DNA of 57,177 bases from an uncultured Bacteroidales bacterium (GTDB taxonomy: Bacteria > Bacteroidota > Bacteroidia > Bacteroidales > CHK158-818). Each line of letters begins with the position of its first letter. Positions within the stretch are counted from its first letter, which is position 1. The translations under genes were made by a program, and so were the position numbers. This document shows, in pieces, positions 40,936 to 56,769 of the stretch. The DNA is taken from positions 1,460-58,636 of the forward strand of contig CASGEW010000009.1 of assembly GCA_949300615.1 (NCBI GenBank), read 5' to 3'. A model generated the notes under the pieces. That model searched no databases. It was not told the DNA's origin and saw only the letters and a list, made by a program, of their open reading frames with translations.

Positions 40936-41631
40936 TTATTTCAACGTCCCCTGTTCGGCTTGTTGTATCATGTTTTCGTTAGCCGTGATATAGACCTCTA
41001 CGCGGCGGTTCAATGCCCGGCCTTCGGCGGTACTGTTATCTGCCACCGGAACATCGTAGGCGAGGCCTTCGGTAGTCATTCTGTCGCGGCTGATGGAGTT
41101 ACCTACCAAGAAGTTGGCAACCGACATGGCCCGCTCTTTCGACAGTTTTTCATTTACGGCCCGCGAACCGGTATTGTCGGTATGTCCGTAAATGGTTATG
41201 TCGGTATCGGGGTTATCACGCAACGATACGGCAAATTGCGCCAACGACTCGCGTGCAGAGGCACTGAGTTCCGAACTGTTCGTGGCAAACAGGATTCCGC
41301 TGGGAAGGGTTACCTTCAACGCTTGAAGATCGTTGGCATCGGTTACGGTTTCCACTTCGACATTTTCTATTTTTTCGAGTTCGGCCTTTTGTTTATCCAT
41401 CTTCTTACCGATCAATGCTCCGGCACTGGCACCGACGGTAGCACCCACTGCGGCACCGATAGCGGCACCCTTACCACCTCCGGCCAACGCTCCGATACCG
41501 GCTCCCAAGGCAGCTCCGCCTCCACCACCGATAGCGGCACCTTTGCCCATATTTGTCCATGAACTACAACCGGTAGAAAATAAAACCGCTAATGATAGGA
41601 ATACAATTCCTGCTAATTTTGTTGTTTTCAT
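40936..41631 (-). CDS. OmpA-family lipoprotein with glycine-zipper domain
   Basis: The 231-residue protein has a lipobox LAVLFSTGC and then a glycine/alanine-rich zipper segment (about residues 28-75) typical of YMGG/Gly-zipper outer-membrane proteins. A C-terminal OmpA domain follows, with the peptidoglycan-binding ITIYGHTDNTGSRAVNEKLSKERA and a later RALNRRVEV. It tethers the outer membrane to peptidoglycan. The start is MKTTKLAGIV; an upstream ATG adds 11 charged residues that would weaken the signal peptide. Confidence 0.9.
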   Translation of the reverse strand: MKTTKLAGIVFLSLAVLFSTGCSSWTNMGKGAAIGGGGGAALGAGIGALAGGGKGAAIGAAVGATVGASAGALIGKKMDKQKAELEKIENVEVETVTDANDLQALKVTLPSGILFATNSSELSASARESLAQFAVSLRDNPDTDITIYGHTDNTGSRAVNEKLSKERAMSVANFLVGNSISRDRMTTEGLAYDVPVADNSTAEGRALNRRVEVYITANENMIQQAEQGTLK

Positions 41632-41874
41632 CGTTTTGTCTTTTTGATTCATAACAAACATCATTCCCTATTTCCGAAAAGAATGGGAATAACTATCCGG
41701 ATGTAAATATAACTGATTTTTTTCTCAATCAAAAATTTTGTTTCGTTTATTCTTTTCCAGAGAGAGGGGCGTCGGTAGCTTTTAAACAATTCCCTCAAAG
41801 CGCGGCCTCTGGCAGGGGAGATTGCCCCCATCAAGATACCTGAAAGGCAGCCATCTAAATGGTCATTGCGGCAA

Positions 41875-43476
41875 TTAGTAGTCGAATTCCAATTCAAAAT
41901 CATCTACCAGCAACGTGGCGCCCGTACCGCCGGTAAAGAAGTCGCCGTACTTGCTTGCCGAGGCTACTACGACGATATAGGTCGGTTTCCGATTCGTAGC
42001 CCGGTAATCGAGCAGCAACTCCAACTCCTGATAGCCGGAGGTACTTTCGCCCGAATAGAACTCGGCATAGGCGATAATATGCGAATCGTTCTTGTCAAAG
42101 AGTTTTCGGTTCGAGGGTCTGGTTCGTATCTCTACCGGCTCGTCCCAATCGCCCAAAGCAATGTATATAGAACAAGTATCGGGTTGTCCTTTCAAATGAA
42201 CATACTCAGAGGAGGTATTGTCGATGGGTGCCGTAGTATATTTATAATGGCATTTTAACTTGGTTGGATACGAACTGTACGGTTTCCCGAAATTCAAAAT
42301 GCCGTTGGTTCCATCCACCTCTACAAAATCGCCCACAAACAGGTTCCCAGCTGCAAATTTCCCGATACCGGCGATGCCGACAAATCTGGATTCCAACCGT
42401 CCGGCTTGTCCGGCTTGTCCGTTCCAGGTCTCATCCGTAGGCAACGTATTGCTTTCGCCCAACGTAGTAGAACCGTCATTGCCGGAATCCCAGAAAGGGG
42501 TTCCGTCTTCGGCCCACGGATTCCACACTTTCCCAACTTTATGCCAACTGTCCAGGTTTCCGTTTTCCAACGGGACGGCTTTTTGTGTCGTGAACGAAAC
42601 TTCCTGCCCATACACTCCGTCAGAATAGGCCCGGAACAGGTACTCGGTTTCTTCTTCCAGTCCGGTCAGCCGGGCAGAGAAGCTACCTCCATTATGCTGT
42701 ACCTCAGAGGGATCTACCTGTGTCCACGCCTGCGCATCGGCTTTCCGGTATTCAAACCCGTTTTCCGCCCCGTCTTTGCCCGTGCCATTGAGCCAGGCCA
42801 CATTCACCCAAGCATCTACCGCACCGGTAGAGACGTCACTTTCGGTATTGAAGACGTAGAGTTCCCACTCTTCCATCACATCCCGGTAGGTTACGATAAC
42901 CGTTTTATGGAGGGTAAAATCCTGTAACAGCGAAATATCGGGCGAAACGATCGACCCGGTTGGTCCCAACACAAGTTCTTGGACGGTTATATGTTCCAAA
43001 TCGGTATCCTTGCTTACGTAAGCCACTACGCGCCGGTTCTTTTCATCGATGATGGATTCGCCCACCTGGTTCGACACGACAAACTTCCGTACGATGTTTT
43101 GCTGCGGGACCAACAGCCATACATAATCCTGATAGAGCGAAAGGGTTACGCTGCGGTTGTACGAAAAGTCGATCGGCTGGGAGAAATCGAGCGACGCCGA
43201 GGCATTCTCGGTCAGTTCTATATTTTTTATTTTAACCGATTTCAAATCGACCGTATCGGCCAACTCGAAGGTCACCGTTCGTTCCTCGTTGTTAATGGTT
43301 GCACTACCCACCTGCCCCTCGGCTTCAAAGGCCAGAATCTGCAATTTCACAATGGGATAGGGAATATCATTACTCAGGCAAGAATAGAGCAACCCCGAAA
43401 GCAACAATACCCACATGGACATGGCTGCTTGGCATATCTTCCCGTTCCGACTTTTCATTCTCCGCATTTTAGACAT
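41875..43476 (-). CDS. PCMD-domain lipoprotein (L4, last gene of surface operon)
   Basis: The 533-residue lipoprotein has a lipobox LLLSGLLYSC (Cys33). Beta-rich N-terminal domains occupy about 35-220, with the repeated pattern VKxKNIELTENASASLDFS / ITVQELVLGPTGSI. An FN3-like domain is at about 225-318 (FEYRKADAQAWTQV, LTGLEEETEYLFRAYS). The PCMD (putative carbohydrate metabolism) jelly-roll-like domain at 320-533 has GIGKFAAGNLFVGDFVEVDG and SNRKLFDKNDSHIIAYAEF. That last domain is clearly paralogous to L3's. The start overlaps the preceding barrel gene by 8 bases. No enzymatic residues are evident. Confidence 0.85.
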   Translation of the reverse strand: MSKMRRMKSRNGKICQAAMSMWVLLLSGLLYSCLSNDIPYPIVKLQILAFEAEGQVGSATINNEERTVTFELADTVDLKSVKIKNIELTENASASLDFSQPIDFSYNRSVTLSLYQDYVWLLVPQQNIVRKFVVSNQVGESIIDEKNRRVVAYVSKDTDLEHITVQELVLGPTGSIVSPDISLLQDFTLHKTVIVTYRDVMEEWELYVFNTESDVSTGAVDAWVNVAWLNGTGKDGAENGFEYRKADAQAWTQVDPSEVQHNGGSFSARLTGLEEETEYLFRAYSDGVYGQEVSFTTQKAVPLENGNLDSWHKVGKVWNPWAEDGTPFWDSGNDGSTTLGESNTLPTDETWNGQAGQAGRLESRFVGIAGIGKFAAGNLFVGDFVEVDGTNGILNFGKPYSSYPTKLKCHYKYTTAPIDNTSSEYVHLKGQPDTCSIYIALGDWDEPVEIRTRPSNRKLFDKNDSHIIAYAEFYSGESTSGYQELELLLDYRATNRKPTYIVVVASASKYGDFFTGGTGATLLVDDFELEFDY

Positions 43477-44314
43477 GGATGGTTATTCCCAGATTAATAT
43501 TCAACAGATTGATCTTAAAATTGGCTCCACTCTTACGCCACGACCCGGTCTCCTCTCCGTTGGTCTTCTGCGACTCTTTCCGGAATTTTACCCCAAGCAC
43601 ACCGAATGAGACCTCGGTGCTGACATTGTTCATGATAAACACCGCCATTCCGGGGCTGAACCCGAGTTGTACCTCGCTGATGTGAGTACGCGTATCGCGC
43701 AGCTCCTGGTTGAGAACCCGCGAAAAACGGGAGTTCCCCATTTTGACCGACAACGATGCTTCACTGAAAAATCCCAACCGCTTCCCAGCATCCAACCCCA
43801 CATACGAGCGGTGAAAGAAGGTACCGACCAACAAGTCGCTGTTCAAGCCAATATCTTTCAACGACAAATCTATATCGTCAATATCTATGCTCACATTGCT
43901 CAAATCGACCTGAGTACGTTCATAACCGAATTTAACGCCGATGGCGATGTTGTCGCGGATAAAATAGCCCCAAAAAGGATTGATCTTAACCGTATGGCCC
44001 GCACAATCGAAATCTTTCAGGAGCAACAGCAGGCTGCTCTCCTTGCTATCGAAATCGAGATACGAAAAGGTTACTCCGAACAACATCTGTCCTTTGGGGG
44101 CGAAACGGTAATTGGTAATCCCGCGGTCAAACCGCCCGACGGCCGGAGTACGGATCAACGAATCTTTTTCAAACTCAAAACTCGACACCTTGACCGAATC
44201 GGGTTGAACGAATATCTGTTTCAACCGTTTCTGGGAAGAGACCGACAAAAACGGTATCCACACCAAAACGAGCAAAATCCATATATATTTTCTGTGTACT
44301 GCCAATCCGATCAT
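43469..44314 (-). CDS. Outer-membrane beta-barrel-like protein (B2)
   Basis: The 281-residue protein has a signal peptide ending near LSVSSQ. Alternating hydrophobic strands occupy most of the body (FAPKGQMLFGVTFSYLDF, NIAIGVKFGYERT, VQLGFSPGMAVFIMNN, VSFGVLGVKF, NFKINLLNINLGITIHV), as in small outer-membrane barrels. It is a paralog of the next upstream gene B1, sharing FxPKGQ, G(F/V)SPGxVAFIxNN, GVLG and NFKIN. It lies 3 bases after B1 and overlaps L4 by 8. Role unknown; perhaps a porin or anchor for the lipoproteins. Confidence 0.75.
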   Translation of the reverse strand: MIGLAVHRKYIWILLVLVWIPFLSVSSQKRLKQIFVQPDSVKVSSFEFEKDSLIRTPAVGRFDRGITNYRFAPKGQMLFGVTFSYLDFDSKESSLLLLLKDFDCAGHTVKINPFWGYFIRDNIAIGVKFGYERTQVDLSNVSIDIDDIDLSLKDIGLNSDLLVGTFFHRSYVGLDAGKRLGFFSEASLSVKMGNSRFSRVLNQELRDTRTHISEVQLGFSPGMAVFIMNNVSTEVSFGVLGVKFRKESQKTNGEETGSWRKSGANFKINLLNINLGITIHV

Positions 44315-44317
44315 GTT

Positions 44318-45055
44318 TTAAATATAAAATGCAAGTCCCAGTCCGATGGAAAAGATGTTGATTTTAAAATTCGCCCGGCTCGACGATCTTTCTCCCACCT
44401 GAACCTGGTCGGTAATCTGATGGACCTTTGAATAGCTGAACCCCAAGACACCGATACTCAGCTCTACGGCCGTGTAGTTGTTGATAAATGCCACAAAACC
44501 GGGCGAAACCCCGATTTTCAGTTCTGTTGTTTTCTCAAACGTCCCGGTCAGGCTCTCTCCCGTACCGCTCACCAGTTTCGACTGGCTACCGCCGACAATC
44601 AACTGGGTCTCGTTAAACAACCCGAAACGGCGACTGTTTCCCAGGTTGATATAGTTACGCAAAACGGCCATTCCCGAATAGGAGTGGGTTAATTGATAGA
44701 AATCTGTCACGGAAAAATCGGTATCGTCGTTGATGATCACATCCACATTGTTCAAGCGATTCAGCGAACGTTGGTACTCAAAACGCCCCCCTGCCGCCAT
44801 ATTATCCTTAAAGGCATAACACAATACCGGGCTGACCTTAAAGGAATATCCTTTCCCCGAGAAGTTTTCTACAACCAGGAACTGGTAATTTTTCCCACTG
44901 TATTCCGAATAGGATATAGTATTACCCAGAATCCACTGACCTTTGGGTACGAACGTACGCTGTTCTATTTTTCGCACAAATTGCGCTTGTGCACACAGGG
45001 TGCACAGCGCAATCGTCGTTATCGTCGTTAAGATATTCCGTGTCAGTTTATTCAT
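44318..45055 (-). CDS. Outer-membrane beta-barrel-like protein (B1)
   Basis: The 245-residue protein has a signal peptide ending LCAQAQ and a predicted barrel: FVPKGQWILGNTISYSEY, KVSPVLCYAFKDNMAAGGRFEYQ, IGVSPGFVAFINNYTAVELSIGVLGFSY and the terminal NIFSIGLGLAFYI. It is a paralog of B2 directly downstream. The ATG lies inside the end of L3 (overlap ATGAATAA), so translation of lipoprotein and barrel is coupled, which suggests they act in one complex. Confidence 0.75.
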   Translation of the reverse strand: MNKLTRNILTTITTIALCTLCAQAQFVRKIEQRTFVPKGQWILGNTISYSEYSGKNYQFLVVENFSGKGYSFKVSPVLCYAFKDNMAAGGRFEYQRSLNRLNNVDVIINDDTDFSVTDFYQLTHSYSGMAVLRNYINLGNSRRFGLFNETQLIVGGSQSKLVSGTGESLTGTFEKTTELKIGVSPGFVAFINNYTAVELSIGVLGFSYSKVHQITDQVQVGERSSSRANFKINIFSIGLGLAFYI

Positions 45056-47180
45056 AAATCAACTCCATATCATCGAGATACAACACGCTCGAAGTACTTC
45101 CGACAAAATAATCTCCGTAAATACTTGCCGATGCTGTTATCACCAGATAGGTCGGGATTCTGTCGTACGAACGGTAATCGAGTTCTATGGTATATTGGGT
45201 CCATTCGCCAACGGTTTGCCCTTGCTTCAACTCGCCGAAAGCAATGATATTCGGGTCGTTCTTGTCAAAGAGTTTCCGATCCGACGATTTGGTCCGGATC
45301 CTTACCGGTTCCGACCAATCCCCCAAGGCCACGTATATATTGGCTATATCGGATTTGCCTATATCCGTCTCCCGCTCGTTTTCCGGGATATCGAAAGAGT
45401 TACCCTCTTTATCCACTATTCCGGAGTTGTATTTATACCAGAAGCGCAATTTGGCAGGACGGCTGGTAAACGGCCTTCCGAAATCCAATACGCCATCGGT
45501 TACATCTGTCTCTACATAACGTCCGGCAAAAAGGTTTCCGGCCGCAAATTTACCTATTCCGAAAAAAGAGACAAACTGCGACTGCAACTTGGCAGAATAT
45601 CCTTCTCCGCTATGCGTATCGGACGATTTTGTGGTTACATTTACATTCATAGTGATAGAGCCATGGTTACCGCTGTCCCAGAACATCTCCTCGCCGGATC
45701 CGTAAATTACGTCGGCACCATCACTGGAATCGGTTGACCAGCGATCGAAGCTGGCATTTTCCAGCTGACGGGCCTCTTCTGTGGTAAATGTCTTCACCAC
45801 GGACGAGGTAAATGTACCGGCTACTGCCCGGTATTGATAGGTTGTATTGGGCTTCAAGCCGGTAATATCGGCCGTCATTACGTTCTCACTTTGAGTAGCA
45901 TTGGCTACCATCCAGTCGGAAGCTCCCGATTCGCGGTATTGGAACGACAACTCATCGGAAGTAGGTTGCAGGATGGAGGCTTTCAACCTCGCCTTACTGG
46001 TCCAAATGGTGGCCCGATCGACATCGACCGTCATCACGATAGCATTTGAGGAAATAATAGAAAAGCGCTGCGTAAAGCTCTTTCCTTGCTTATCTTGTGC
46101 CGTAATATCTATGTGATACTCTCCCTCGGTAAGATTGGCAAAGAAAGTTTCCGAAAACTCGATCTTCATCGCCGACTGATCGGCCAGGGCATCGTACGTA
46201 ACACTGGTTGTGATACCGGCTGCGGCCAACGACTCTTGCTGGGGATCGGACAACTTCATCAAATCAAGGCCTTCTGCCGGAATGGCAGACACATTGATAG
46301 CCGAAACCGGAACGTTCATCAACTGGGAAGAGGTATTTACCCAAACTACCTGCCGGTCTCCCTCTCCCACTTCCACATAAAGCGGTTTGGTGATGTCAAA
46401 GTCTTGCCCGGTGATGCTCGGACGCAGATATACTACGATGTTATCTTCTTTCACCAATGCCGTCTCGTCCACTTTCAGGTCCAAAACACCTCCCCCGTTG
46501 TTGAGGTATTCTCCCTCCTCAAAGCCGAACGTCAACACATATTTCATACCGCCGGTGGCATCGTTTATCATTCCCGTTTTGGTAAAAGGGGCTCCGGTTT
46601 TGGTTTGGGCCGTAAACGACCACCCCAATGCCGACTCACCTTCGGGCAACATAAAGTAGGCTACATCGTCGAGATTTTCTGCCGTAAACGTCAGCCGGCC
46701 TTTGGTGGTAAACACTTCGGCTGCATAATCCGTAAAGTTGGAGACTACCGCCGGATCAAACACAACAGACACCAATGTATTGGCAATATGGCAATTAACC
46801 GTTACATTTATAGTTCCACCGCTGGGCACGTCAAAACTTTCTTCTCCTTTGAAATAGGGCGTTGCATTAAATGCGGCATCTTGTGCCGTACCTACCTCTA
46901 CGGTTACCCGGTAGCTACCCGATTGGAGCCAAAGCGATCCGGGCATTTCATTGACATATTTCCGGATCAGTCCGTCTCCGCTGTAAATCCGTATGGTATA
47001 ATCGGGTGTCTGGTCGTCGGCCTTGGTTTGTGCCAATCCGCTGATCGAAACCAGATCATCGGTCTTAAACGACAACCGCACCTCTCCTTCTCCACTCATC
47101 TCGTCCTGTGTACAGGCTCCCAGCAGGGCCCCCAAGCAGAACAATACAATCGATATATAGAATATACTGCTTTTCTTCAT
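45048..47180 (-). CDS. DUF4493-FN3-PCMD lipoprotein (L3)
   Basis: The 710-residue lipoprotein has the lipobox LGALLGAC (Cys23) followed by TQDEMSGEGE. Domains in order are: DUF4493 (about 30-265), with IRIYSGDGLIRKYVNEMPGSLWL and NCHIANTLVSVVFD; a middle beta domain (about 270-380); an FN3-like domain (about 388-475, FQYRESGASDWMVA, LKPNTTYQYRAVAG); and PCMD (about 476-710), with MFWDSGNHGSITMN, GIGKFAAGNLFAGRY and SSDRKLFDKNDPNII. It is the longest full-module partner of L4 and probably lies on the outer-membrane surface. Confidence 0.87.
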   Translation of the reverse strand: MKKSSIFYISIVLFCLGALLGACTQDEMSGEGEVRLSFKTDDLVSISGLAQTKADDQTPDYTIRIYSGDGLIRKYVNEMPGSLWLQSGSYRVTVEVGTAQDAAFNATPYFKGEESFDVPSGGTINVTVNCHIANTLVSVVFDPAVVSNFTDYAAEVFTTKGRLTFTAENLDDVAYFMLPEGESALGWSFTAQTKTGAPFTKTGMINDATGGMKYVLTFGFEEGEYLNNGGGVLDLKVDETALVKEDNIVVYLRPSITGQDFDITKPLYVEVGEGDRQVVWVNTSSQLMNVPVSAINVSAIPAEGLDLMKLSDPQQESLAAAGITTSVTYDALADQSAMKIEFSETFFANLTEGEYHIDITAQDKQGKSFTQRFSIISSNAIVMTVDVDRATIWTSKARLKASILQPTSDELSFQYRESGASDWMVANATQSENVMTADITGLKPNTTYQYRAVAGTFTSSVVKTFTTEEARQLENASFDRWSTDSSDGADVIYGSGEEMFWDSGNHGSITMNVNVTTKSSDTHSGEGYSAKLQSQFVSFFGIGKFAAGNLFAGRYVETDVTDGVLDFGRPFTSRPAKLRFWYKYNSGIVDKEGNSFDIPENERETDIGKSDIANIYVALGDWSEPVRIRTKSSDRKLFDKNDPNIIAFGELKQGQTVGEWTQYTIELDYRSYDRIPTYLVITASASIYGDYFVGSTSSVLYLDDMELIYE

Positions 47181-47187
47181 GGCCCTA

Positions 47188-48453
47188 CTATATTGTTATG
47201 ATCACTAAATTCTCTACTGTCTCTTGTCCCTCATTATCGACCACCGTCAAGACAAAGGTATGGGTACCGGGGCCCAATATGGCCAACAGCGGGCCGAATT
47301 GGGTAATATCGAACGAAACGGAGGTTTGATTCTGTACGCCATCTTTTACCGGGAATCCCATGTTTCTCAACGATTCTTCATATTGGCCCGGATTCACCAA
47401 GTCCAAATGGTCTGTCAAGCCGACTCCTTCCAACTCCTCGGGAGTCAAGGTATTCGATTGGATATCCACCATCATCGACCGAATCCCTTTGGGGGCCGAC
47501 ACGGCAATGGCAATGGGCACGGATTGACCGCCTTTTGAAATGGTCAGGGGCGTTCCGATACCGTCACCGGTAATAATCGGAGCATCGCCCGAAGGATCGG
47601 GTTCTTCCGGGTCCGGATTTTCATCGGGGATAACCGGTTCAGGATCGACCGTTACGTTCTGATTCTTTTCTACCACGGTGCACGTTCCGTTCAACGAAAT
47701 GGTAGGTGTAATCGTCCCGTTTTCCAAATTTCCATCCAGATCGGTACCTTTGAGCGAATAGGTTATCTTGCGGTGCTGACCGGCCTCGACATCGGTAAAG
47801 GATTGACGCAGTACAATAGACTCTCCTGCCACCGTCCCTACAAATTCAGAGACCAGTACCGAGGGGAAATCGGTTGTATAAAAATAGACCGCACGGGATT
47901 CATCTTTGGTGAAGTCGGCCGAGCCGCTTCCCACCTTTACATTGACGGTAACATCGTCTCCCATATATTTTTGCAGTTCCGCATCATACTCTACCGTCAC
48001 CTTGACACTGTGCAGGGTACAAATCAACTCTCCCAGATCGGTAACGGTATTCTCCTGAATATCGAATTCTGCATCTACGTAATAATAGGGATGTTCCCAC
48101 TCCATCGGCAGCGGATCGTGCGAATGGGCTTCGAGCCGATAACGACCGGTACTCAACGTAACTACATCGGGCATATCCTTATAAGCCCACTCGTTTACCT
48201 GGGTATCCTCACCATTGGAGGCTATTTTAAAAATCCGGATAATAAAGTCATCGGTACTGACAGCCCGGGTAACACTCTTTACTTCGGTGGCCTCTTCTGC
48301 CAGGGTAACCGAGAGCGAGGACAAATTCAATTGGCCGGAAACGCCTCCGTCCACACCGCCTCTATCGCCGTAATCCAATTTCTCGCGTTCGCACGAGGAG
48401 AGGGTTACCAACGATACCATCAACAGACTTACTATATAGTGTATCTTTTTCAT
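47188..48453 (-). CDS. DUF4493 lipoprotein without PCMD (L2)
   Basis: The 421-residue lipoprotein has the lipobox LVTLSSC (Cys21) followed by EREKLDYG. DUF4493 spans about 40-265 (IRIFKIASNGEDTQVNEWAY, LICTLHSVKVTVEYD). A Pro/Asp/Glu-rich linker near 270-290 (PDENPDPEEPDPSGD) follows, then one copy of the middle domain (SNTLTPEELEGVGLTDHLDL), which is also present in L1 and L3. The FN3 and PCMD domains are absent, so it is a short version of its neighbours. It lies 18 bases after L1 and 7 bases before L3. Confidence 0.85.
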   Translation of the reverse strand: MKKIHYIVSLLMVSLVTLSSCEREKLDYGDRGGVDGGVSGQLNLSSLSVTLAEEATEVKSVTRAVSTDDFIIRIFKIASNGEDTQVNEWAYKDMPDVVTLSTGRYRLEAHSHDPLPMEWEHPYYYVDAEFDIQENTVTDLGELICTLHSVKVTVEYDAELQKYMGDDVTVNVKVGSGSADFTKDESRAVYFYTTDFPSVLVSEFVGTVAGESIVLRQSFTDVEAGQHRKITYSLKGTDLDGNLENGTITPTISLNGTCTVVEKNQNVTVDPEPVIPDENPDPEEPDPSGDAPIITGDGIGTPLTISKGGQSVPIAIAVSAPKGIRSMMVDIQSNTLTPEELEGVGLTDHLDLVNPGQYEESLRNMGFPVKDGVQNQTSVSFDITQFGPLLAILGPGTHTFVLTVVDNEGQETVENLVIITI

Positions 48454-48471
48454 TGCTTCGTGTTTAAGGAG

Positions 48472-51066
48472 TTAGTAAGAGAATGTCAAGTTATCGACCG
48501 TCAGCATCGCCCCGCGGGAGCAGCACTCATCTTTCGAGTTGTAGTTGGTGGTCTTGATACTTGCCTCATCTGCATGGTTGGATGAGGAGAACATGATTCT
48601 CAAATGCGTTGCATTCAGTTCCGGACGGCTGTATTGAATCGGGAGTGTAAACTGGGTATAATTTCCCGTGGCATCCAACTCGGCCGATGCTGTTCCGATT
48701 TCGGTATCCCCGTTCATAATCTGCACGGTTACCACTCCTTTTTCTGCTGCATCCTGCGAATCATTTTCATATTTATAATATCCCTGCATCTGAACAGGCC
48801 TGGAGGTAAACGCTACGCCTTCGGTATATATCTCTTGTCCGTTTGCATAACTATAAGTTCCCAAGAACAGTTTCCCGGCAGAGCGGTTACCGATAGAGGG
48901 GACGCGTTCGCAATAGTAGTTGCTGTAACTGGTATTTCCGGTCTTCTGATCTCTTCCGACATCTGCACCGGCAGCATCCCAGGCCACGTTTCTAACCACC
49001 ATGGCATTGGAGCCACTCTGGGCAGAAAGCGAGGTATAGATATCGGCTGTCGAGTCGTATGCGCTTTGTCCTATACCCCACACTTTTGCTTCCGGCTGAT
49101 GGGAAATCCAACTCAACGAGGTATTGAACGTAGAGGGGATACAATACCAAGAGTTCTTATTGGATGCACCGAGGTTACAAGTTTTGGCATTTACACTCGC
49201 CCAACCTTCCGGTTCGGAGACGACCATCGACAATGTGGTTTGATACCCCGTTGAAATGCTTGTGGCTGTGGTTGTCCAGGTTCCTCCCTGGTTGATGGTC
49301 GTATTAATGGTTTGATTCAACTGCTCAAAATCCCCATTGGGAACGCCCAATTCCGCTTCGGTCGTAAAAGAAAGGATATTGGAAAATTCGGTATTATCGG
49401 GAGAATCGGTACAGGTGGTTTTAAAACGATATTCGGTCCCGCCAGTCAAGCCGGAAACCTCGATCTTATCGGCTCCCTGTTGCGTAAAGGCCATCTTGGT
49501 ATCGTCGTTGTAGAGCGTCAGATACTCCATCACCACGGCCTGTTCTTCGGGGTCTTCTGCCGTAACGGTCAGGATAGCCTTTCGGGCCCAGACATCTCCT
49601 ACACTATTCGATAACGTATAACGGGGGGTTACCATTTCCAAGGTTACGGGATCGGAAATTTTTGTTCCGAAATATGACGCCGATATCTCCATAGGATGGT
49701 TTTCAACCGGAAGTTCTATCGTTAAATTGTACAACTGGTCTCCTGCCGATTCGACGTTGGTTACCGAACACGTATGCACCTGCCCGCTTTCGTCTTCATA
49801 GCTGACCGATACCAACGACGGATCTCCGTCCAATTGAACGGGAATAACCGCCTCCGTACTGCCTATTTGAACCGGATCGGGTGTTTGCAGGGCAAACGTC
49901 CGCGGCTGGCTGGTAATAGACAACGTTACTTCGTCGGTTGCCCGACCTTGCGAATCGATTGCTTTCAAAGAGAAGGTATGATTGGCATCGCCTTCTACAT
50001 ATTCAAGTTTCGATACCAGGGTCGAGAAATCTACATAGGCCATCTTGTCTTTGTTCTCAAATCCTTTCAACCGCAATCCCATATCGGAGAAAAGCGTCTG
50101 TTGTTCAGGGGTCAAGGCTGTCAAGTCCACCTGGGCAGGCCAACCCTTTTCTTGAAGATAGGCCGATGCCGTTGTCATGGTACAAGAGGCAAAACCCGAC
50201 GGGGCGGTTATCAACACATTGAGATCGCCCAACGAAGCGTCGAGCTCCTTAACCTCTTTCGAGACGCCCGAATCAAATCCCATCAACGTAATAAACGGCG
50301 GTTGCATACTGAACGAGCCATCGGCCAAATTAATCGTTATCGGGGTCTCTTGGGTCGTCTCATCAAAAGTGATGCTTAACTCGGCATCTCCTACTTGACC
50401 GTCATTGACATCGAATTTTATTTTATAATGCGTACAAGCCTGCGCGATAAAAATCTCCGGAGAAAACGACATGGACGAACCGTCGGGTTTTACCAACGAC
50501 ATTTGCAGGGTCATTTGTCCCGGTTTTACATAGGCCTCGCGCGTCTCCTCTTTTGAAAAGATAATCGAGTTGTTATTGCTCGTTTTAAGCGTGGTGGCAA
50601 AATCAGAAAAATAGTTCTGGAACGCTTCGGTATATTCCAACGATACCTTTGCGTTGGCCAGCGTACAGGTTACGGCAATATCGGTATTCTGCCCGTTAAA
50701 TACTTGGAAAGGTTCCGATCCCTCGAAATAGGGTTCGTCAAAACCCTCCTTATCCATATCTCCATACGTCGCCTTAAAAACAAAAGAGCCCAACGGGAAA
50801 TCCATATTTGCCGGAAAATCGCTAAACGAATCCCATGACCGGAACAGGCTACCATCTTCATTCAGGATGGTAACGGCAAAATCTTTCGTATCAGGTTGAG
50901 ACAGGGTTGTTGTCAAAACGGCAGGATCAGTCGCTAACGGCACAGAATAGTCTGCCGTCAATACCGGAGTTACTTGACCCGTTCCCGCAGCATCCCGCTC
51001 TTCGTCAGAACAAGCAGCCAACAGCACTCCACAGATTCCTACTAAAAATAACAGCTTACAATTCAT
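48472..51066 (-). CDS. DUF4493-PCMD lipoprotein (L1, first gene of surface operon)
   Basis: The 864-residue lipoprotein has the lipobox CGVLLAAC (Cys19), followed at once by SDEERD, which fits the S-(D/E)3 surface-export signal of Bacteroidetes. Domains in order are: DUF4493 (about 55-240), the middle domain (about 280-385), a strand-rich domain (390-480), an FN3-like domain (490-570, DVWARKAILTVTAED, LTGGTEYRFKTTC) and a PCMD-like C-terminus (575-864, AGKLFLGTYSYANG, MLTVDNLTFSY). A Cys pair, ECCS, lies near the end. It is the first gene after the promoter, so probably the most abundant product. Confidence 0.87.
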   Translation of the reverse strand: MNCKLLFLVGICGVLLAACSDEERDAAGTGQVTPVLTADYSVPLATDPAVLTTTLSQPDTKDFAVTILNEDGSLFRSWDSFSDFPANMDFPLGSFVFKATYGDMDKEGFDEPYFEGSEPFQVFNGQNTDIAVTCTLANAKVSLEYTEAFQNYFSDFATTLKTSNNNSIIFSKEETREAYVKPGQMTLQMSLVKPDGSSMSFSPEIFIAQACTHYKIKFDVNDGQVGDAELSITFDETTQETPITINLADGSFSMQPPFITLMGFDSGVSKEVKELDASLGDLNVLITAPSGFASCTMTTASAYLQEKGWPAQVDLTALTPEQQTLFSDMGLRLKGFENKDKMAYVDFSTLVSKLEYVEGDANHTFSLKAIDSQGRATDEVTLSITSQPRTFALQTPDPVQIGSTEAVIPVQLDGDPSLVSVSYEDESGQVHTCSVTNVESAGDQLYNLTIELPVENHPMEISASYFGTKISDPVTLEMVTPRYTLSNSVGDVWARKAILTVTAEDPEEQAVVMEYLTLYNDDTKMAFTQQGADKIEVSGLTGGTEYRFKTTCTDSPDNTEFSNILSFTTEAELGVPNGDFEQLNQTINTTINQGGTWTTTATSISTGYQTTLSMVVSEPEGWASVNAKTCNLGASNKNSWYCIPSTFNTSLSWISHQPEAKVWGIGQSAYDSTADIYTSLSAQSGSNAMVVRNVAWDAAGADVGRDQKTGNTSYSNYYCERVPSIGNRSAGKLFLGTYSYANGQEIYTEGVAFTSRPVQMQGYYKYENDSQDAAEKGVVTVQIMNGDTEIGTASAELDATGNYTQFTLPIQYSRPELNATHLRIMFSSSNHADEASIKTTNYNSKDECCSRGAMLTVDNLTFSY

Positions 51067-51469: not shown

Positions 51470-52543
51470 ATGAATACATTCGGAACCATATTCAGACTCA
51501 CCTCTTTCGGAGAGTCGCACGGAACGGGCGTCGGTGGAGTAATCGACGGAATACCTGCGGGTATCGCGGTGGACATGGAGTTTATCCAGCACGAGCTGAA
51601 CCGCCGCCGGCCGGGACAATCGGCTATTGTTACCCCGCGGAAAGAGAGCGATACGGTAGAAATTCTTTCGGGAGTCTTCGAGGGAAAGACCACCGGAACA
51701 CCTATCGGATTTGTCGTATATAACCAAAACCAACACTCTGCCGACTACGATACCCTGCGCCAGGTATATCGACCCTCGCACGCCGACTACACCTACCAGC
51801 AAAAATACGGATGGCGCGACCACCGGGGCGGTGGACGCTCGTCGGCGCGGGAGACCATCTCCCGCTGCGTGGCAGGCGCTTTTGCCAAACTGGCCCTGAA
51901 CACCTTGGGCGTCGATATAAAGGCTTTCACCTCGCAAGTGGGCCCCATCGCGCTGAAAGGGTCGTACCAGGATTACAACTTAGACGATATAGAGAAGAAC
52001 ATCGTCCGGTGTCCGGATGCCGATACGGCCGAAAAGATGATCGAACTGATTGCCGAAGTACGCGAAGAGGGCGACACCATCGGAGGGGTCATCACCTGCG
52101 TAGCCCGCCACGTACCGCCCTGCCTGGGCGAACCCGTATTCAACAAGCTGCACGCCGACTTAGGCAGCGCGATGCTCAGCATCAACGCCGCCAAAGGATT
52201 TGAATACGGCATGGGGTTCAACGGAGTACAGTACCGGGGATCGGAAATGAACGACGTCTTTACGCGTCGGGAGAACCGTATCACCACCCTGACCAACCAT
52301 TCGGGAGGCATCCAGGGAGGCATCTCCAACGGCGAGGACATCTATTTCCGGGTAGCATTCAAGCCCATTGCCACCATCCTGCGCGACATCCGCACGCTCG
52401 ATTACGCCGGCAACCCCATCAACCTGAAAGCCAAAGGGCGACACGACCCCTGCGTCCTGCCGCGGGCCGTCCCCATCGTAGAGGCCATGACCGCCATGGT
52501 GCTGTTAGACCACTACCTAATGAATAAAACCCGACACCTCTAA
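51470..52543 (+). CDS. aroC: Chorismate synthase
   Basis: The 357-residue FMN-dependent enzyme carries out the last shikimate-pathway step, EPSP to chorismate. The signatures [47 protein letters not shown] and [17 protein letters not shown] are complete. Other aro genes are not nearby. It begins a stretch of visibly higher G+C that runs to the end of the window. Confidence 0.97.
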
Positions 52544-52600
52544 TCCCGATAACCGAAAAAGCCCAAGAACCCGATTTATCCATACAAACGACTTGACATC

Positions 52601-53971
52601 ATGGAAATAAAAGCATATTTGTCGGCCAACCGCGAACAGATCATCGCCGACCTCGCCTCGTTAATCCGAATCCCCTCGGTCAGTGCCCAACCCGAGCACC
52701 GACCCGACATGCTCCGTTGCGCCGAACGGTGGAGAGAGCTCCTGGCAGCAGCCGGCGCCGACACGGCAACGGTGATGGAGACGGAGGGAAATCCGGTAGT
52801 GTTTGCCTCCAAAACGCTCTCGCCCGACTACCCCACCGTATTGATATATGCCCATTACGACGTCATGCCGGCAGAACCGGTCGAACAATGGAAGACTCCC
52901 CCTTTTGAACTGACCCGGGAGGGGGGATATTTCCGCGGACGAGGTACGGACGACGACAAGGGACAATCCTTCATCCAGGTCAAGGGCTTTGAATATGCCT
53001 TGCGAAACGGCGACCTGCGCTGCAACGTCAAGTTCCTCTTTGAAGGCGAGGAGGAGATCGGCTCTCCCTCGCTGGAACAATTCTGTCGAAAAAACAAAGA
53101 ACTGCTCAAAGCCGACGTCATCCTCGTATCGGACACCAGCATGGTGAGTGCGCAAACGCCCTCCATTACTACCGGCCTTCGGGGATTGGCCTATTGGCAG
53201 ATAGCCGTTACCGGGCCCAACCGCGACCTGCACTCGGGCATCTTCGGCGGAGCGGTAGCCAACCCCATCAACGAACTTTGCAAGCTCATCGCCCACATAA
53301 CCGACGACCGGGGACGAATCGCCATCCCCGGCTTTTACGACGACGTAGAGGAGCTCTCTCCCGAAGAACGGGCGATGATGGCCGCCATCCCCCACGACGA
53401 GGCGGCCTACCGGAAAGCCGTGGGAGTAAACGCCTTGCAGGGAGAAAGCGGATACAACACGCTCGAACGGGCCTCCATCCGCCCCACTTTCGACGTTTGC
53501 GGCATCTGGGGCGGATACACCGGCGAAGGGGCCAAAACGGTACTCCCTTCGCAAGCCTTTGCCAAGGTATCCTGCCGACTGGTTCCCCACCAGGATTACC
53601 GGAAAATCTCCGAACTCTTCATCCGCTACATCGAACAGGCAGCCCCGCCCTGCATACAGGTATCCGTTACTCCCCTGCACGGCGGGCAAGGATATGTCTG
53701 CCCCATCACGTTGCCGGCCTACCAGGCTGCCGAAGAGGCCTACCAAGCCGTATTCGGACAAAAACCGCTGGCCGTACGGCGGGGAGGCAGCATCCCCATC
53801 ATCGCCGTATTTGAAGAGGTTTTGGACATCAAGAGCGTCCTGATGGGACTGGGACTCGAATCGGACGCCACCCATTCGCCCAACGAAAACTTTCCGGAAA
53901 AGCTCTTCTTCCAGGGCATCGAGATAGTGGCCGAATTTTACAAGAGATTCGGGCACGGCACCCTCCGGTAA
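52601..53971 (+). CDS. M20-family metallopeptidase (dipeptidase)
   Basis: The 456-residue cytosolic di-zinc peptidase has metal and catalytic motifs AHYDVMPAEP, GRGTDDDKGQ, FEGEEEIGSPSL (general base Glu) and a late SDATHSPNENF His ligand. The central dimerisation domain, with DLHSGIFGGAVANP, is present. It most resembles CNDP/PepV-like dipeptidases rather than DapE. It probably hydrolyses dipeptides. It lies 57 bases after aroC and 16 before the radical SAM gene. Confidence 0.92.
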   Translation: MEIKAYLSANREQIIADLASLIRIPSVSAQPEHRPDMLRCAERWRELLAAAGADTATVMETEGNPVVFASKTLSPDYPTVLIYAHYDVMPAEPVEQWKTPPFELTREGGYFRGRGTDDDKGQSFIQVKGFEYALRNGDLRCNVKFLFEGEEEIGSPSLEQFCRKNKELLKADVILVSDTSMVSAQTPSITTGLRGLAYWQIAVTGPNRDLHSGIFGGAVANPINELCKLIAHITDDRGRIAIPGFYDDVEELSPEERAMMAAIPHDEAAYRKAVGVNALQGESGYNTLERASIRPTFDVCGIWGGYTGEGAKTVLPSQAFAKVSCRLVPHQDYRKISELFIRYIEQAAPPCIQVSVTPLHGGQGYVCPITLPAYQAAEEAYQAVFGQKPLAVRRGGSIPIIAVFEEVLDIKSVLMGLGLESDATHSPNENFPEKLFFQGIEIVAEFYKRFGHGTLR

Positions 53972-53987
53972 CCAACGAGAAAAAAGC

Positions 53988-54914
53988 ATGACACGATACA
54001 ACGACTTCGGCAATTTTCTGAAAAAGCACTTCGAGGGGAAGGTCCAAAAAATCTCGGTCCACGCCGGCTTCACCTGTCCCAACCGCGACGGCAGCAAAGG
54101 GTATGGCGGTTGCACCTACTGCAACAACCAGACGTTCAGCCCCGACTACTGCCAAAGCGACAAGAGCATCTCCCAACAGGTTACCGAAGGTATCCGGTTT
54201 TTCAGCCGCAAATACCCGCAGATGCAGTACCTGGCCTATTTCCAGTCGTACACGAACACCTACGGAGAGACGGCCGGGCTGATTCAGAAATACGAAGAGG
54301 CCCTCTCCATCCCCGGCGTAAAGGGTATTATCATCGGCACACGTCCCGACTGTATGCCCGAGGAGCTGCTCGACTACCTGGCCTCGCTCTCGAAAACGAC
54401 CTTCGTCCTGGTTGAATACGGCATCGAATCGACCGACAACCAGACCCTGCAACAGATCAACCGGGGACATACGTACGAAGATACCGTATCGGCCGTAACC
54501 CGTACCGCCCGGCGCGGAATCCTGACCGGAGGGCACCTGATACTGGGATTGCCGGGAGAGAGCCGCGCGGCCTTGTTGGAACACGCCCGGCGGTTGTCGC
54601 AGCTGCCCCTTACCACGCTGAAACTGCACCAGCTCCAACTGATCCGTGGTACGCGGATGGCGACCCAATATGCCCAACACCCGGAACAGTTCCAACTCTA
54701 CACCGCCGACCAGTACATCGAGCTCTGCATCGATTTCATCGAACGGCTGCGGCCGGAGATCGTCGTAGAGCGATTCATCTCGCAATCGCCCCCCCAGCTA
54801 CTGATTGCCCCCGACTGGGGCCTCAAAAACCACGTATTTACCGCCCGGTTGGCCAAACGGCTCGAAGAGCGCGACACCTGGCAAGGGAGACGATACTCCC
54901 CCGTATCCGAATAA
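53988..54914 (+). CDS. Radical SAM protein, TIGR01212/YhcC-type
   Basis: This 308-residue cytosolic iron-sulfur enzyme has the cluster-binding cysteines in the CPNRDGSKGYGGCTYC spacing (C-x10-C-x2-C), which differs from classic CxxxCxxC and is typical of the YhcC family. The YFQSYTNTYG, GTRPDCMPEE, LGLPGES and C-terminal AxLIAPDWGLKNH elements fit. Substrate is unknown. It is the third of four close plus-strand genes after aroC. Confidence 0.9.
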   Translation: MTRYNDFGNFLKKHFEGKVQKISVHAGFTCPNRDGSKGYGGCTYCNNQTFSPDYCQSDKSISQQVTEGIRFFSRKYPQMQYLAYFQSYTNTYGETAGLIQKYEEALSIPGVKGIIIGTRPDCMPEELLDYLASLSKTTFVLVEYGIESTDNQTLQQINRGHTYEDTVSAVTRTARRGILTGGHLILGLPGESRAALLEHARRLSQLPLTTLKLHQLQLIRGTRMATQYAQHPEQFQLYTADQYIELCIDFIERLRPEIVVERFISQSPPQLLIAPDWGLKNHVFTARLAKRLEERDTWQGRRYSPVSE

Positions 54915-54942
54915 AATACAACCCACCACAAACCGACCCGAC

Positions 54943-56769
54943 ATGAAACAAAGAATCTACCTCTTTTTCAAAACATACTGCCTGTTCGTGCTGCTGGCCG
55001 CAGTGCTCAAAGTGGTATTCATGCTCTGCTACCCCTCCATCTACGAGGCTTTCCCCCTCTCCCAATGGTTGCGCGTGGTAGGGCACGGCCTGATACTGGA
55101 CCTCTCCATCGCCGGTTACCTGACCGCCCTGCCCGGACTGCTGCTGCTCGCCTCCGTCTGGCTGGGAGCACGCATCACCCGAAAGGTGGCCTCGGCATAC
55201 TTCATCCTCATCTCCGTCGTATTGGCCTTGATCTGGATCAGCGACATCGTCCTGTACGGGTATTGGGGATTTCGGTTAGACACCACTCCCCTGTTCTACC
55301 TCAACTCTCCCAAAAGCGCCTTGGCAAGCGCCCAGACGGGGCAACTGATAGGTGGCACCATCGCCATCCTGGCCACGATAGCCGGGCTCATCGCGCTGTT
55401 CCGGTACCTGATTCTGAAAGGGTGGAAGCGGCTCGAACCCACCCGCCGGAAACCTCTTCCGGCCATCGTCCTGTTACTGCTTACCGCCTTGCTGTTTATC
55501 CCCATCCGGGGCGGATTCACCGTATCGACCATGAACGTAGGGAAAGTATATTTCAGTGAAAAGATGGAGTTGAACCACGCCGCAATAAACCCCTGTTTCA
55601 GCTTTCTGGATGCCCTGACCCGCGACAAGGCCTTCGACCAGCAGTATCGTTTCTTCGACGAACCCCGGGCGGCCGCCCTTTTCCAGGAGTTGCAGGAGAC
55701 GACGCCGGCAGACAGCATCACCCCGCTCTTTACCGTCGAACGGCCCAACATCATCTTCATCGTACTGGAAAGTTTCATGTCGAAAGTGGTAGAACCGTTG
55801 GGCGGAATCCCGAACGTGGCCACCACCCTGAACCGGCTGTGCGGCGAAGGGGTACTCTTCGACCACCTCTATGCAAACTCGTTCCGGACAGACCGCGGCC
55901 TGGTATCCATTTTCAGCGGCTATCCGGCACAACCCACCACCTCCATCATGAAATACCCCGCCAAGAGCCAGCACCTGCCCTCCATACCCAAATCGCTGAA
56001 AGAGAACGGGTACGACCTCTCTTTCTTTTACGGAGGTGATGCCGACTTTACCAATATGCGCTCCTACTTCGTCTCGATGGGCATCGACCGAATCCTCTCC
56101 GACAAGGACTTCCCGCTCAAAGACCGGATGATGAAGTGGGGCGCGCACGACGAGTTTGTTTTCAGGAAACTCTCCGACGACCTGAAAACCGAACAAAAAG
56201 AGCCCTTCTGCAAAATCTTGCTTACGCTCAGCAGCCACGAACCGTTCGAGGTCCCCTTCCACCGCCTCGACCAGGAGTACCTGAACTCGGTAGCCTATAC
56301 CGACAGCTGCCTGGGAGTATTCATCGACGAGTTCAAACAATCCAAATACTGGGACAACACCGTCGTCGTCTTAGTCCCCGACCACGCCATGCGCTATCCG
56401 TACGACATCTCCAACGCCTCGCCCGAGCGGTACCAGATACCGATGCTGTTCGTAGGGGGTGCCATCCAGGAGCCCCGGACGGTAGAGACCATCGGGTCGC
56501 AGATAGACCTGGCCGCCACCCTGCTGACCCAGCTGGGGATAGAACGTTCGGAATACATTTTCAGCAAAGACCTGCTGAATCCCCGCTCTCCCCACTTTGC
56601 CTTCTACACCTTCAAGGATGGCTTCGGATTCATCACGCCCCAGGGAAAAGCCATTTTCGACTGCGAAGCCGGCCAACCCTTCGACGAATACGGAGCGACA
56701 GACAACGCCCATCTCGACCAGGGGAAAGCCCTGTTGCAATCGCTCTACAACGACTTGGAAAAGAGATAA
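54943..56769 (+). CDS. LTA-synthase-type membrane sulfatase-fold protein
   Basis: The 608-residue protein has five N-terminal transmembrane helices (to about residue 195) and an extracytoplasmic alkaline-phosphatase/sulfatase domain. The domain starts NIIFIVLESFMSK (metal-binding Glu), with NSFRTDRGLVSIFSGYP (probable Thr nucleophile), FYGGDADFTNM and VVVLVPDHAMRYP. In Gram-negative bacteria such proteins move phosphoglycerol or phosphoethanolamine to lipids or periplasmic glycans rather than making lipoteichoic acid. The start at MKQRIYLFF was chosen; the frame extends 138 bases upstream into the radical SAM gene without family similarity. Confidence 0.9.
   Translation: MKQRIYLFFKTYCLFVLLAAVLKVVFMLCYPSIYEAFPLSQWLRVVGHGLILDLSIAGYLTALPGLLLLASVWLGARITRKVASAYFILISVVLALIWISDIVLYGYWGFRLDTTPLFYLNSPKSALASAQTGQLIGGTIAILATIAGLIALFRYLILKGWKRLEPTRRKPLPAIVLLLLTALLFIPIRGGFTVSTMNVGKVYFSEKMELNHAAINPCFSFLDALTRDKAFDQQYRFFDEPRAAALFQELQETTPADSITPLFTVERPNIIFIVLESFMSKVVEPLGGIPNVATTLNRLCGEGVLFDHLYANSFRTDRGLVSIFSGYPAQPTTSIMKYPAKSQHLPSIPKSLKENGYDLSFFYGGDADFTNMRSYFVSMGIDRILSDKDFPLKDRMMKWGAHDEFVFRKLSDDLKTEQKEPFCKILLTLSSHEPFEVPFHRLDQEYLNSVAYTDSCLGVFIDEFKQSKYWDNTVVVLVPDHAMRYPYDISNASPERYQIPMLFVGGAIQEPRTVETIGSQIDLAATLLTQLGIERSEYIFSKDLLNPRSPHFAFYTFKDGFGFITPQGKAIFDCEAGQPFDEYGATDNAHLDQGKALLQSLYNDLEKR

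Follow-up and report, generated by a model that had tools for sequence, protein, structure and literature searches.

Six consecutive minus-strand genes of an uncultured Bacteroidales bacterium raise the question of whether they encode one device of the cell surface and, if so, of what kind. The genes lie in a window of 57,177 nucleotides, the whole stretch of DNA that was analysed (GenBank assembly GCA_949300615.1, 2.41 Mb in 130 contigs; contig CASGEW010000009.1, positions 1,460 to 58,636 of the forward strand), and an earlier note had read them as an operon of modular lipoproteins (L1 to L4) and barrels (B1, B2) that builds one envelope-spanning, perhaps adhesive or glycan-binding assembly. 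The operon is genuine and its conservation is wide, not local. Computation established the conserved gene order, the predicted folds, the motif conservation and the loss of the proposed catalytic residue in the PCMD domains. The reading preferred here, in which about half of our confidence is placed, is one outer-membrane, cell-surface and probably adhesive or glycan/ligand-capturing assembly, with L4 and a barrel as its base and L1–L3 resembling tip pilins. The gene coordinates agree exactly with the order L1-L2-L3-B1-B2-L4 first described, with gaps of 18, 7 and 3 bases and two 8-base overlaps, and the features are listed below (all on the minus strand; lengths in amino acids, aa).

48472..51066, minus: L1, 864 aa, lipoprotein with CSDEE after the lipobox; DUF4493, Ig-like middle domain and long C-terminal part with partial PCMD
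50326..50979, minus: L1 DUF4493, residues 30-247 (Pfam 7.5e-49); fimbrillin-type fold inferred from L2
47188..48453, minus: L2, 421 aa, lipoprotein; DUF4493 and C-terminal Ig-like domain
47653..48336, minus: L2 DUF4493, residues 40-267 (Pfam 1e-40); predicted double-sandwich fimbrillin-type fold
48262..48270, minus: L2 T62-R63-A64, candidate protease-processing site following the first strand, from motif conservation
47191..47589, minus: L2 Ig-like C-terminal domain, residues 289-421, from the structure model
45048..47180, minus: L3, 710 aa, lipoprotein; DUF4493, middle domain, FN3-like domain and PCMD
46431..47093, minus: L3 DUF4493, residues 30-250 (Pfam 1.2e-42)
47019..47027, minus: L3 T52-K53-A54, candidate protease-processing site, from motif conservation
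45771..46046, minus: L3 FN3-like domain, residues 379-470 (Pfam Pur_ac_phosph_N/fn3)
45057..45752, minus: L3 PCMD jelly-roll, residues 477-708 (Pfam 3.3e-44), relative of BT2081 (3hbz)
44318..45055, minus: B1, 245 aa, 8-stranded OmpA-type outer-membrane barrel by model; conserved mature N-terminus R28...F35-x-P37-K38
43469..44314, minus: B2, 281 aa, paralogous barrel; weak generic outer-membrane barrel match in Pfam
41875..43476, minus: L4, 533 aa, lipoprotein; two N-terminal sandwich repeats, FN3-like domain and PCMD, without DUF4493
43354..43380, minus: L4 lipidated N-terminus C33-L-S-N-D-I-P-Y-P41, near-invariant CxxND-x-PYP, proposed barrel-docking peptide
41890..42552, minus: L4 PCMD jelly-roll, residues 309-529 (Pfam 3.7e-42)

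Lipoboxes were present in L1–L4. The assignment of DUF4493 and a common middle domain to L1, L2 and L3 was borne out by the Pfam matches and by the L2 model, in which the middle domain is an Ig-like sandwich. FN3-like and PCMD domains had been assigned jointly to L1, L3 and L4; both were recovered in L3 and L4 (the FN3-like signal of L4 being of the same Pfam type as in L3), whereas in the window's own L1 the PCMD match was weaker and partial (2.7e-9, still above the curated cut-off) and Pfam detected no FN3 domain. Orthologous L1 proteins gave weak FN3 matches (1e-4 in L014, 5e-4 in L059). NCBIfam returned no specific match for the six proteins.

Relatives were collected through L3 matches and by running a B1 profile on 295 Bacteroidales genomes (24 genomes at E<1e-50), and their loci were annotated with hidden Markov models built from the operon proteins. 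Counting the window, 26 loci from no fewer than 12 families have the arrangement [two to four DUF4493 genes]-L3-B1-(B2)-L4, although some of these loci are mutually close relatives; among them are Bacteroides acidifaciens, Bacteroides sp. GM023 and Phocaeicola plebeius, and the closest named relative found, Candidatus Gallibacteroides avistercoris, has 94–98% protein identity over the operon. The earlier note had proposed this search and had allowed that the order might be conserved in no relative, which does not hold. Two barrel genes occur in 17 loci and one in 9, the single-barrel loci typically having extra short DUF4493 genes (about 225–285 aa), and the flanks differ between loci, the commonest neighbour families each occurring in just 6. 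In genome G139 one contig holds L1-L2-L3 and another B1-B2-L4, so that the unit is divided but neither half is lost. Genome G173 has B1-B2-L4 alone, without any DUF4493, and two distant genomes (L067, L068) retain a barrel–PCMD pair (barrel profile match >99%); the barrel and the PCMD lipoprotein are therefore the core partners, with the DUF4493 lipoproteins as additions. With its repeated DUF4493 and PCMD proteins and paralogous barrels, the conserved unit is built from duplicated parts, as had been supposed.

For the fold of DUF4493, L2 was modelled singly with AlphaFold2 from a 19-sequence alignment (mean predicted local distance difference test score, pLDDT, 77.5; DUF4493 domain mostly 83–92). 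Foldseek against the PDB gave 39 matches (E<=1e-3), those to fimbrial and cell-adhesion proteins of Bacteroidales having prob 1.00, and VIA-align gave Z 8.3–9.0 over 186–204 residues, covering the whole domain (38–260) and both of its sandwich domains (partners 3r4r, 4h40, 3sy6, 3liu, 5nf4 (Mfa3), 3up6, 4gpv, 4jg5, 4k4k, 4q98 (FimA), 3ufi and 5nfi (Mfa2)). Unrelated PepT ectodomains reached similar Z against the model, but were aligned over just about 90 residues, and no functional conclusion was drawn from PDB matches to lone Ig/FN3 domains. DUF4493 is thus predicted to be a fimbrillin-type (type V pilus) double sandwich, by a signal that is coherent, not overwhelming.

A candidate processing site was examined in the alignment of DUF4493 domains, where one column between strand one (GxLxL) and strand two holds R or K in 82/89, preceded by T or S in 69. 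Fimbrillins are cleaved at this position, which lends the fimbrillin link independent support; Mfa1 is cleaved at Arg49 (PMC5954841), and clostripain is the processing protease for fimbrillins of gut species (PMC12632263). Between +11 and +50 from the lipid Cys, the motif [ST][RK][AST] is found in 58/94 DUF4493 proteins and in 9/16 known fimbrillins; the corresponding figures are 7/48 for other lipoproteins and 2/20 for L4 proteins (Fisher p 5e-8 for the enrichment against other lipoproteins, relatedness not corrected); in L1 of the window the position reads TKD and is less clear than in L2 and L3. A clostripain gene was found in 24/24 operon-bearing genomes versus 41/271 others. In three genomes of different families, an extra gene at the head of the operon (L064:4313-6148, L065:5430-7262, L070:13517-15454), missed by Pfam, matches the Mfa_like_1 fimbrillin profile (93%, E 2.7e-7). 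At least two acidic residues at +2 to +6 after the lipid Cys were present in 71% of DUF4493 proteins versus 33% of other lipoproteins, an enrichment which, given the lipoprotein export signal (LES) defined in PMC5080379, suggests that the DUF4493 lipoproteins are surface-exposed.

These data bear directly on whether the operon is a genuine type V pilus locus whose subunits have diverged, in which the DUF4493 proteins would be stalk, adaptor and tip pilins polymerising by strand exchange and the barrels would be accessory. Such a locus would account for the modelled fold and the processing site, for the fimbrillin-like head gene of three lineages and for the short stand-alone DUF4493 genes of single-barrel loci, possible stalk units, and tip pilins bearing C-terminal ligand domains are known (PMC12632263). 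It is nevertheless held to be improbable, as Pfam finds none of the fimbrillin, Mfa2 or FimA domains in the six proteins, the profiles of DUF4493 and the fimbrillins fail to match (hhalign 12.6% and 1.2%, versus 99.7% for a positive control), by which sequence homology with the Mfa families was rejected, and every DUF4493 protein of the window ends in other domains. Only this tip-like architecture is seen in the window, and the short DUF4493 genes are those of single-barrel loci. With neither a match to the fimbrillin sequence families nor a recognised stalk or anchor pilin, the operon is not assigned to the type V pili.

Several of these results also weigh against the assembly preferred here. 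As sequence profiles do not connect the families, the predicted DUF4493–fimbrillin link rests on a single AlphaFold model of modest quality, with Z near 9; the operon contains no recognisable stalk or anchor pilin, and L1–L3 show no free C-terminal strand that could serve as donor. The co-occurrence with clostripain is confounded by ancestry, being largely a family-level trait, and is consistent evidence only. Genome G173 adds to these points, and no requirement for barrels is known in type V pili.

The second question is what the heads of L3, L4 and, in part, L1 do. The crystal structure of the PCMD relative BT2081 shows a jelly-roll whose aromatic pocket is deep, and Asp259 and Asp338 were put forward with it as possible catalysts (PMC2954218). 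PCMD and DUF4493 had both been described as without assigned function, which for PCMD overlooks this published structure and for DUF4493 is amended by the predicted fold and the matching processing site; what stands is that DUF4493 was not mentioned in the open literature searched (subscription journals lay outside its scope), where searches by the PCMD name were likewise empty. When 52 L3/L4 domains were mapped via alignment to BT2081 numbering, aromatic residues were found at the positions of Phe202 and Phe206 in 52/52, Phe340 in 50/52 and Tyr261 in 48/52; Asp338 is kept in 50/52 and the calcium ligand Asp351 in 52/52, Asp is found at the Asp259 position in 0/52, and Arg290 is replaced by Glu in 41/52. 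Because the pocket aromatics are retained and the proposed catalytic Asp259 is lost, these sequences make binding likelier than hydrolysis. That the L3/L4 PCMD domains are glycoside hydrolases, as suggested by the BT2081 authors, and the operon a degradation locus, was rejected and is given very little credence; in its favour, 3hbz, 3s30, 4jrl and 4het are annotated 'putative glycoside hydrolase', and against it, the domains lack the proposed catalytic residue throughout and its Arg290 partner in most cases.

The same pocket might instead belong to a surface glycan-capture complex without pilus-like assembly, in which DUF4493 would merely position PCMD, Ig and FN3 heads and the barrels would anchor them or act as small sugar pores. 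The conserved aromatic pocket of BT2081 (PMC2954218), retained in L3 and L4, agrees with such a complex, which we nonetheless consider unlikely, as it leaves the conserved DUF4493 T[RK] site unexplained and a SusC/SusD or enzyme gene is found inside 0/26 operons. An 8-stranded barrel is not known to have a transport-size pore, which counts further against it. A Sus-like polysaccharide-utilization system was rejected, SusC and SusD being found neither among the six proteins (Pfam) nor inside the 26 operons, as was anti-phage defence, for which PADLOC gives one marginal match (L3, 0.0053, to a helicase model). In the genome of the window DUF4493 is confined to L1, L2 and L3, and PCMD has one more copy, on another contig (C2:60618-61358; L006:1294-2250); this fourth PCMD protein (318 aa) has an ordinary signal peptide, not of lipoprotein type, and its gene adjoins a sulfotransferase-like and an outer-membrane assembly-like gene (families called by eye).

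The two barrels described between L3 and L4 proved to be paralogues (32% identity). B1, modelled singly from a 14-sequence alignment (pLDDT 73.3), is predicted to be an 8-stranded barrel, closest to OmpA (1qjp, Z 14.7, 136 residues, root-mean-square deviation 2.3), with OprF, NspA and OmpW next. The structure predictions called for by the earlier note thus gave fimbrillin-type and Ig-like folds for L2 and this barrel for B1. Its term 'envelope-spanning' was too strong, as an 8-stranded barrel crosses the outer membrane only and the operon yielded no periplasmic component; Pfam detected no C-terminal peptidoglycan-binding OmpA domain (PF00691) in B1 or B2. The barrels share a conserved mature N-terminus (R28 0.98, F35 0.88, P37 0.90, K38 0.94 over 49 barrels), and the lipidated N-terminus of L4 is conserved likewise, where CxxND-x-PYP is kept at C 100%, N 97%, D 100%, P 87%, Y 97% and P 97% of 30 sequences. 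The motif was present in 19/20 L4 proteins and 0/162 other lipoproteins of the sample, and L4 carries it in place of a typical LES (as defined in PMC5080379). In the BAM complex of Bacteroidota, the conserved N-terminus of the lipoprotein BamH is wedged into the barrel BamG and meets the conserved N-terminus of BamG (PMC12578637), and L4 is proposed to dock on B1/B2 by the same principle, as an analogy, not a homology.

Homology of B1/B2 with DUF3575 barrels was rejected (profile comparison at most 20%), as was homology with 261-aa barrels beside other PCMD genes (0.5%). Further PCMD lipoproteins lie near the operon in some relatives (L011:743-4846, L014:16513-20162, L016:13050-14540); the L016 protein has DUF5018 and Calycin-like domains, and a 261-aa barrel (OMP_b-brl_2 in L011) adjoins the PCMD gene of L011 and that of L014. 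The pairing of PCMD with a barrel seems to be a wider theme, though the barrels are unrelated by profile. Upstream of the minimal pair in L067 is a 1508-aa protein without Pfam match (L067:6005-10531).

From these parts, an assembly at the cell surface may be inferred as follows. L1–L3 would be surface lipoproteins with an N-terminal fimbrillin-type double sandwich and, as in type V tip pilins, domains of ligand-binding type (Ig, FN3, PCMD jelly-roll) C-terminal to it. A surface clostripain would likely process them after the conserved T[RK] site, cleavage might free the fimbrillin groove, and a neighbour could insert a strand. L4 would dock by its invariant lipidated N-terminus on the small barrel, as BamH does on BamG, and on this base of barrel and L4 the proteins L1–L3 would assemble. 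A surface-facing, ligand-binding unit, as had been expected, is probable. That the operon further represents an undescribed class of organelle, a bundle of fimbrillin-fold lipoproteins nucleated on OmpA-type barrels via a lipidated docking peptide, without stalk pilin and with several jelly-roll heads at once, is offered only tentatively. In the open literature, to which the search was confined, the system itself seems not to have been described, in line with its earlier designation as a candidate for an undescribed system.

The surroundings of the operon were also inspected. GC content rises abruptly from about 0.46 to 0.58 where aroC and its following genes begin (window positions 51470-56000); a chimeric assembly at the upstream edge was rejected, as aroC is single in the genus and adjoins L1 in genome G190 too. 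A phase-variable promoter was rejected, no strong inverted repeat being present in the region upstream of L1, where no exact promoter match was found with the Bacteroides consensus. Directly downstream of L4, on the same strand, is an OmpA-domain lipoprotein with a glycine zipper (window positions 40936-41664), which stays beside L4 in the Gallibacteroides contig L008 and not elsewhere. The same AraC-type regulator flanks the operon in six loci (L012, L013, L014, L048, L059 and L060; five of them single-barrel), usually divergent and upstream, and is possibly a dedicated regulator. Away from the operon, a DUF4493 lipoprotein adjoins a DUF3575 barrel on the same strand in L095, L097 and L100 (one family), and a DUF4493 lipoprotein of about 490 aa in L096, L098 and L099 has as neighbours two more lipoproteins and a barrel of TonB-plug/CarboxypepD_reg type (about 890 aa).

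The analysis gives a first structural reading of DUF4493, a family absent from the literature searched, and a predicted tie to type V pilus biology. The occurrence of the conserved six-gene unit in cultured Phocaeicola plebeius and Bacteroides acidifaciens makes it a testable surface machine of gut Bacteroidales, and the CxxND-x-PYP N-terminus and the conserved barrel N-terminus are targets for point mutations that address lipoprotein–barrel attachment in Bacteroidota.

Compared with known systems, the operon shares with type V pili (FimA, Mfa1-5) lipoprotein precursors, the predicted double-sandwich fold of DUF4493, a basic processing site following the first strand, additional C-terminal domains of the kind seen in tip pilins, a clostripain in all genomes with the operon and, in three lineages, a fimbrillin-like head gene; it differs in having no sequence-profile match and no recognised stalk or anchor pilin, and in its obligatory neighbouring OmpA-type barrels and PCMD lipoprotein lacking the fimbrillin fold. 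With BamG-BamH it has in common a barrel with a conserved extended N-terminus and a surface lipoprotein whose lipidated N-terminus is highly conserved (PMC12578637), but BamG is an essential, 14-stranded FadL homologue and B1 is 8-stranded, OmpA-type and patchy in distribution, so that the working principle alone is compared. L3 and L4 resemble BT2081 and the PCMD family (PF13201) in the jelly-roll, the aromatic pocket and the structural calcium Asp351, and depart from BT2081 in the loss of Asp259 and Arg290 and in their partners, a fused DUF4493 in L3 and a dedicated barrel for L4. B1 is like the OmpA family in its modelled 8-stranded transmembrane barrel, and B1 and B2 are unlike it in having no PF00691. 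DUF3575 barrels share no profile similarity with B1/B2; the likeness lies in gene positions, since in several genomes of this study a small outer-membrane barrel gene of this kind adjoins fimbrillin lipoprotein genes and, in one family, a DUF4493 gene.

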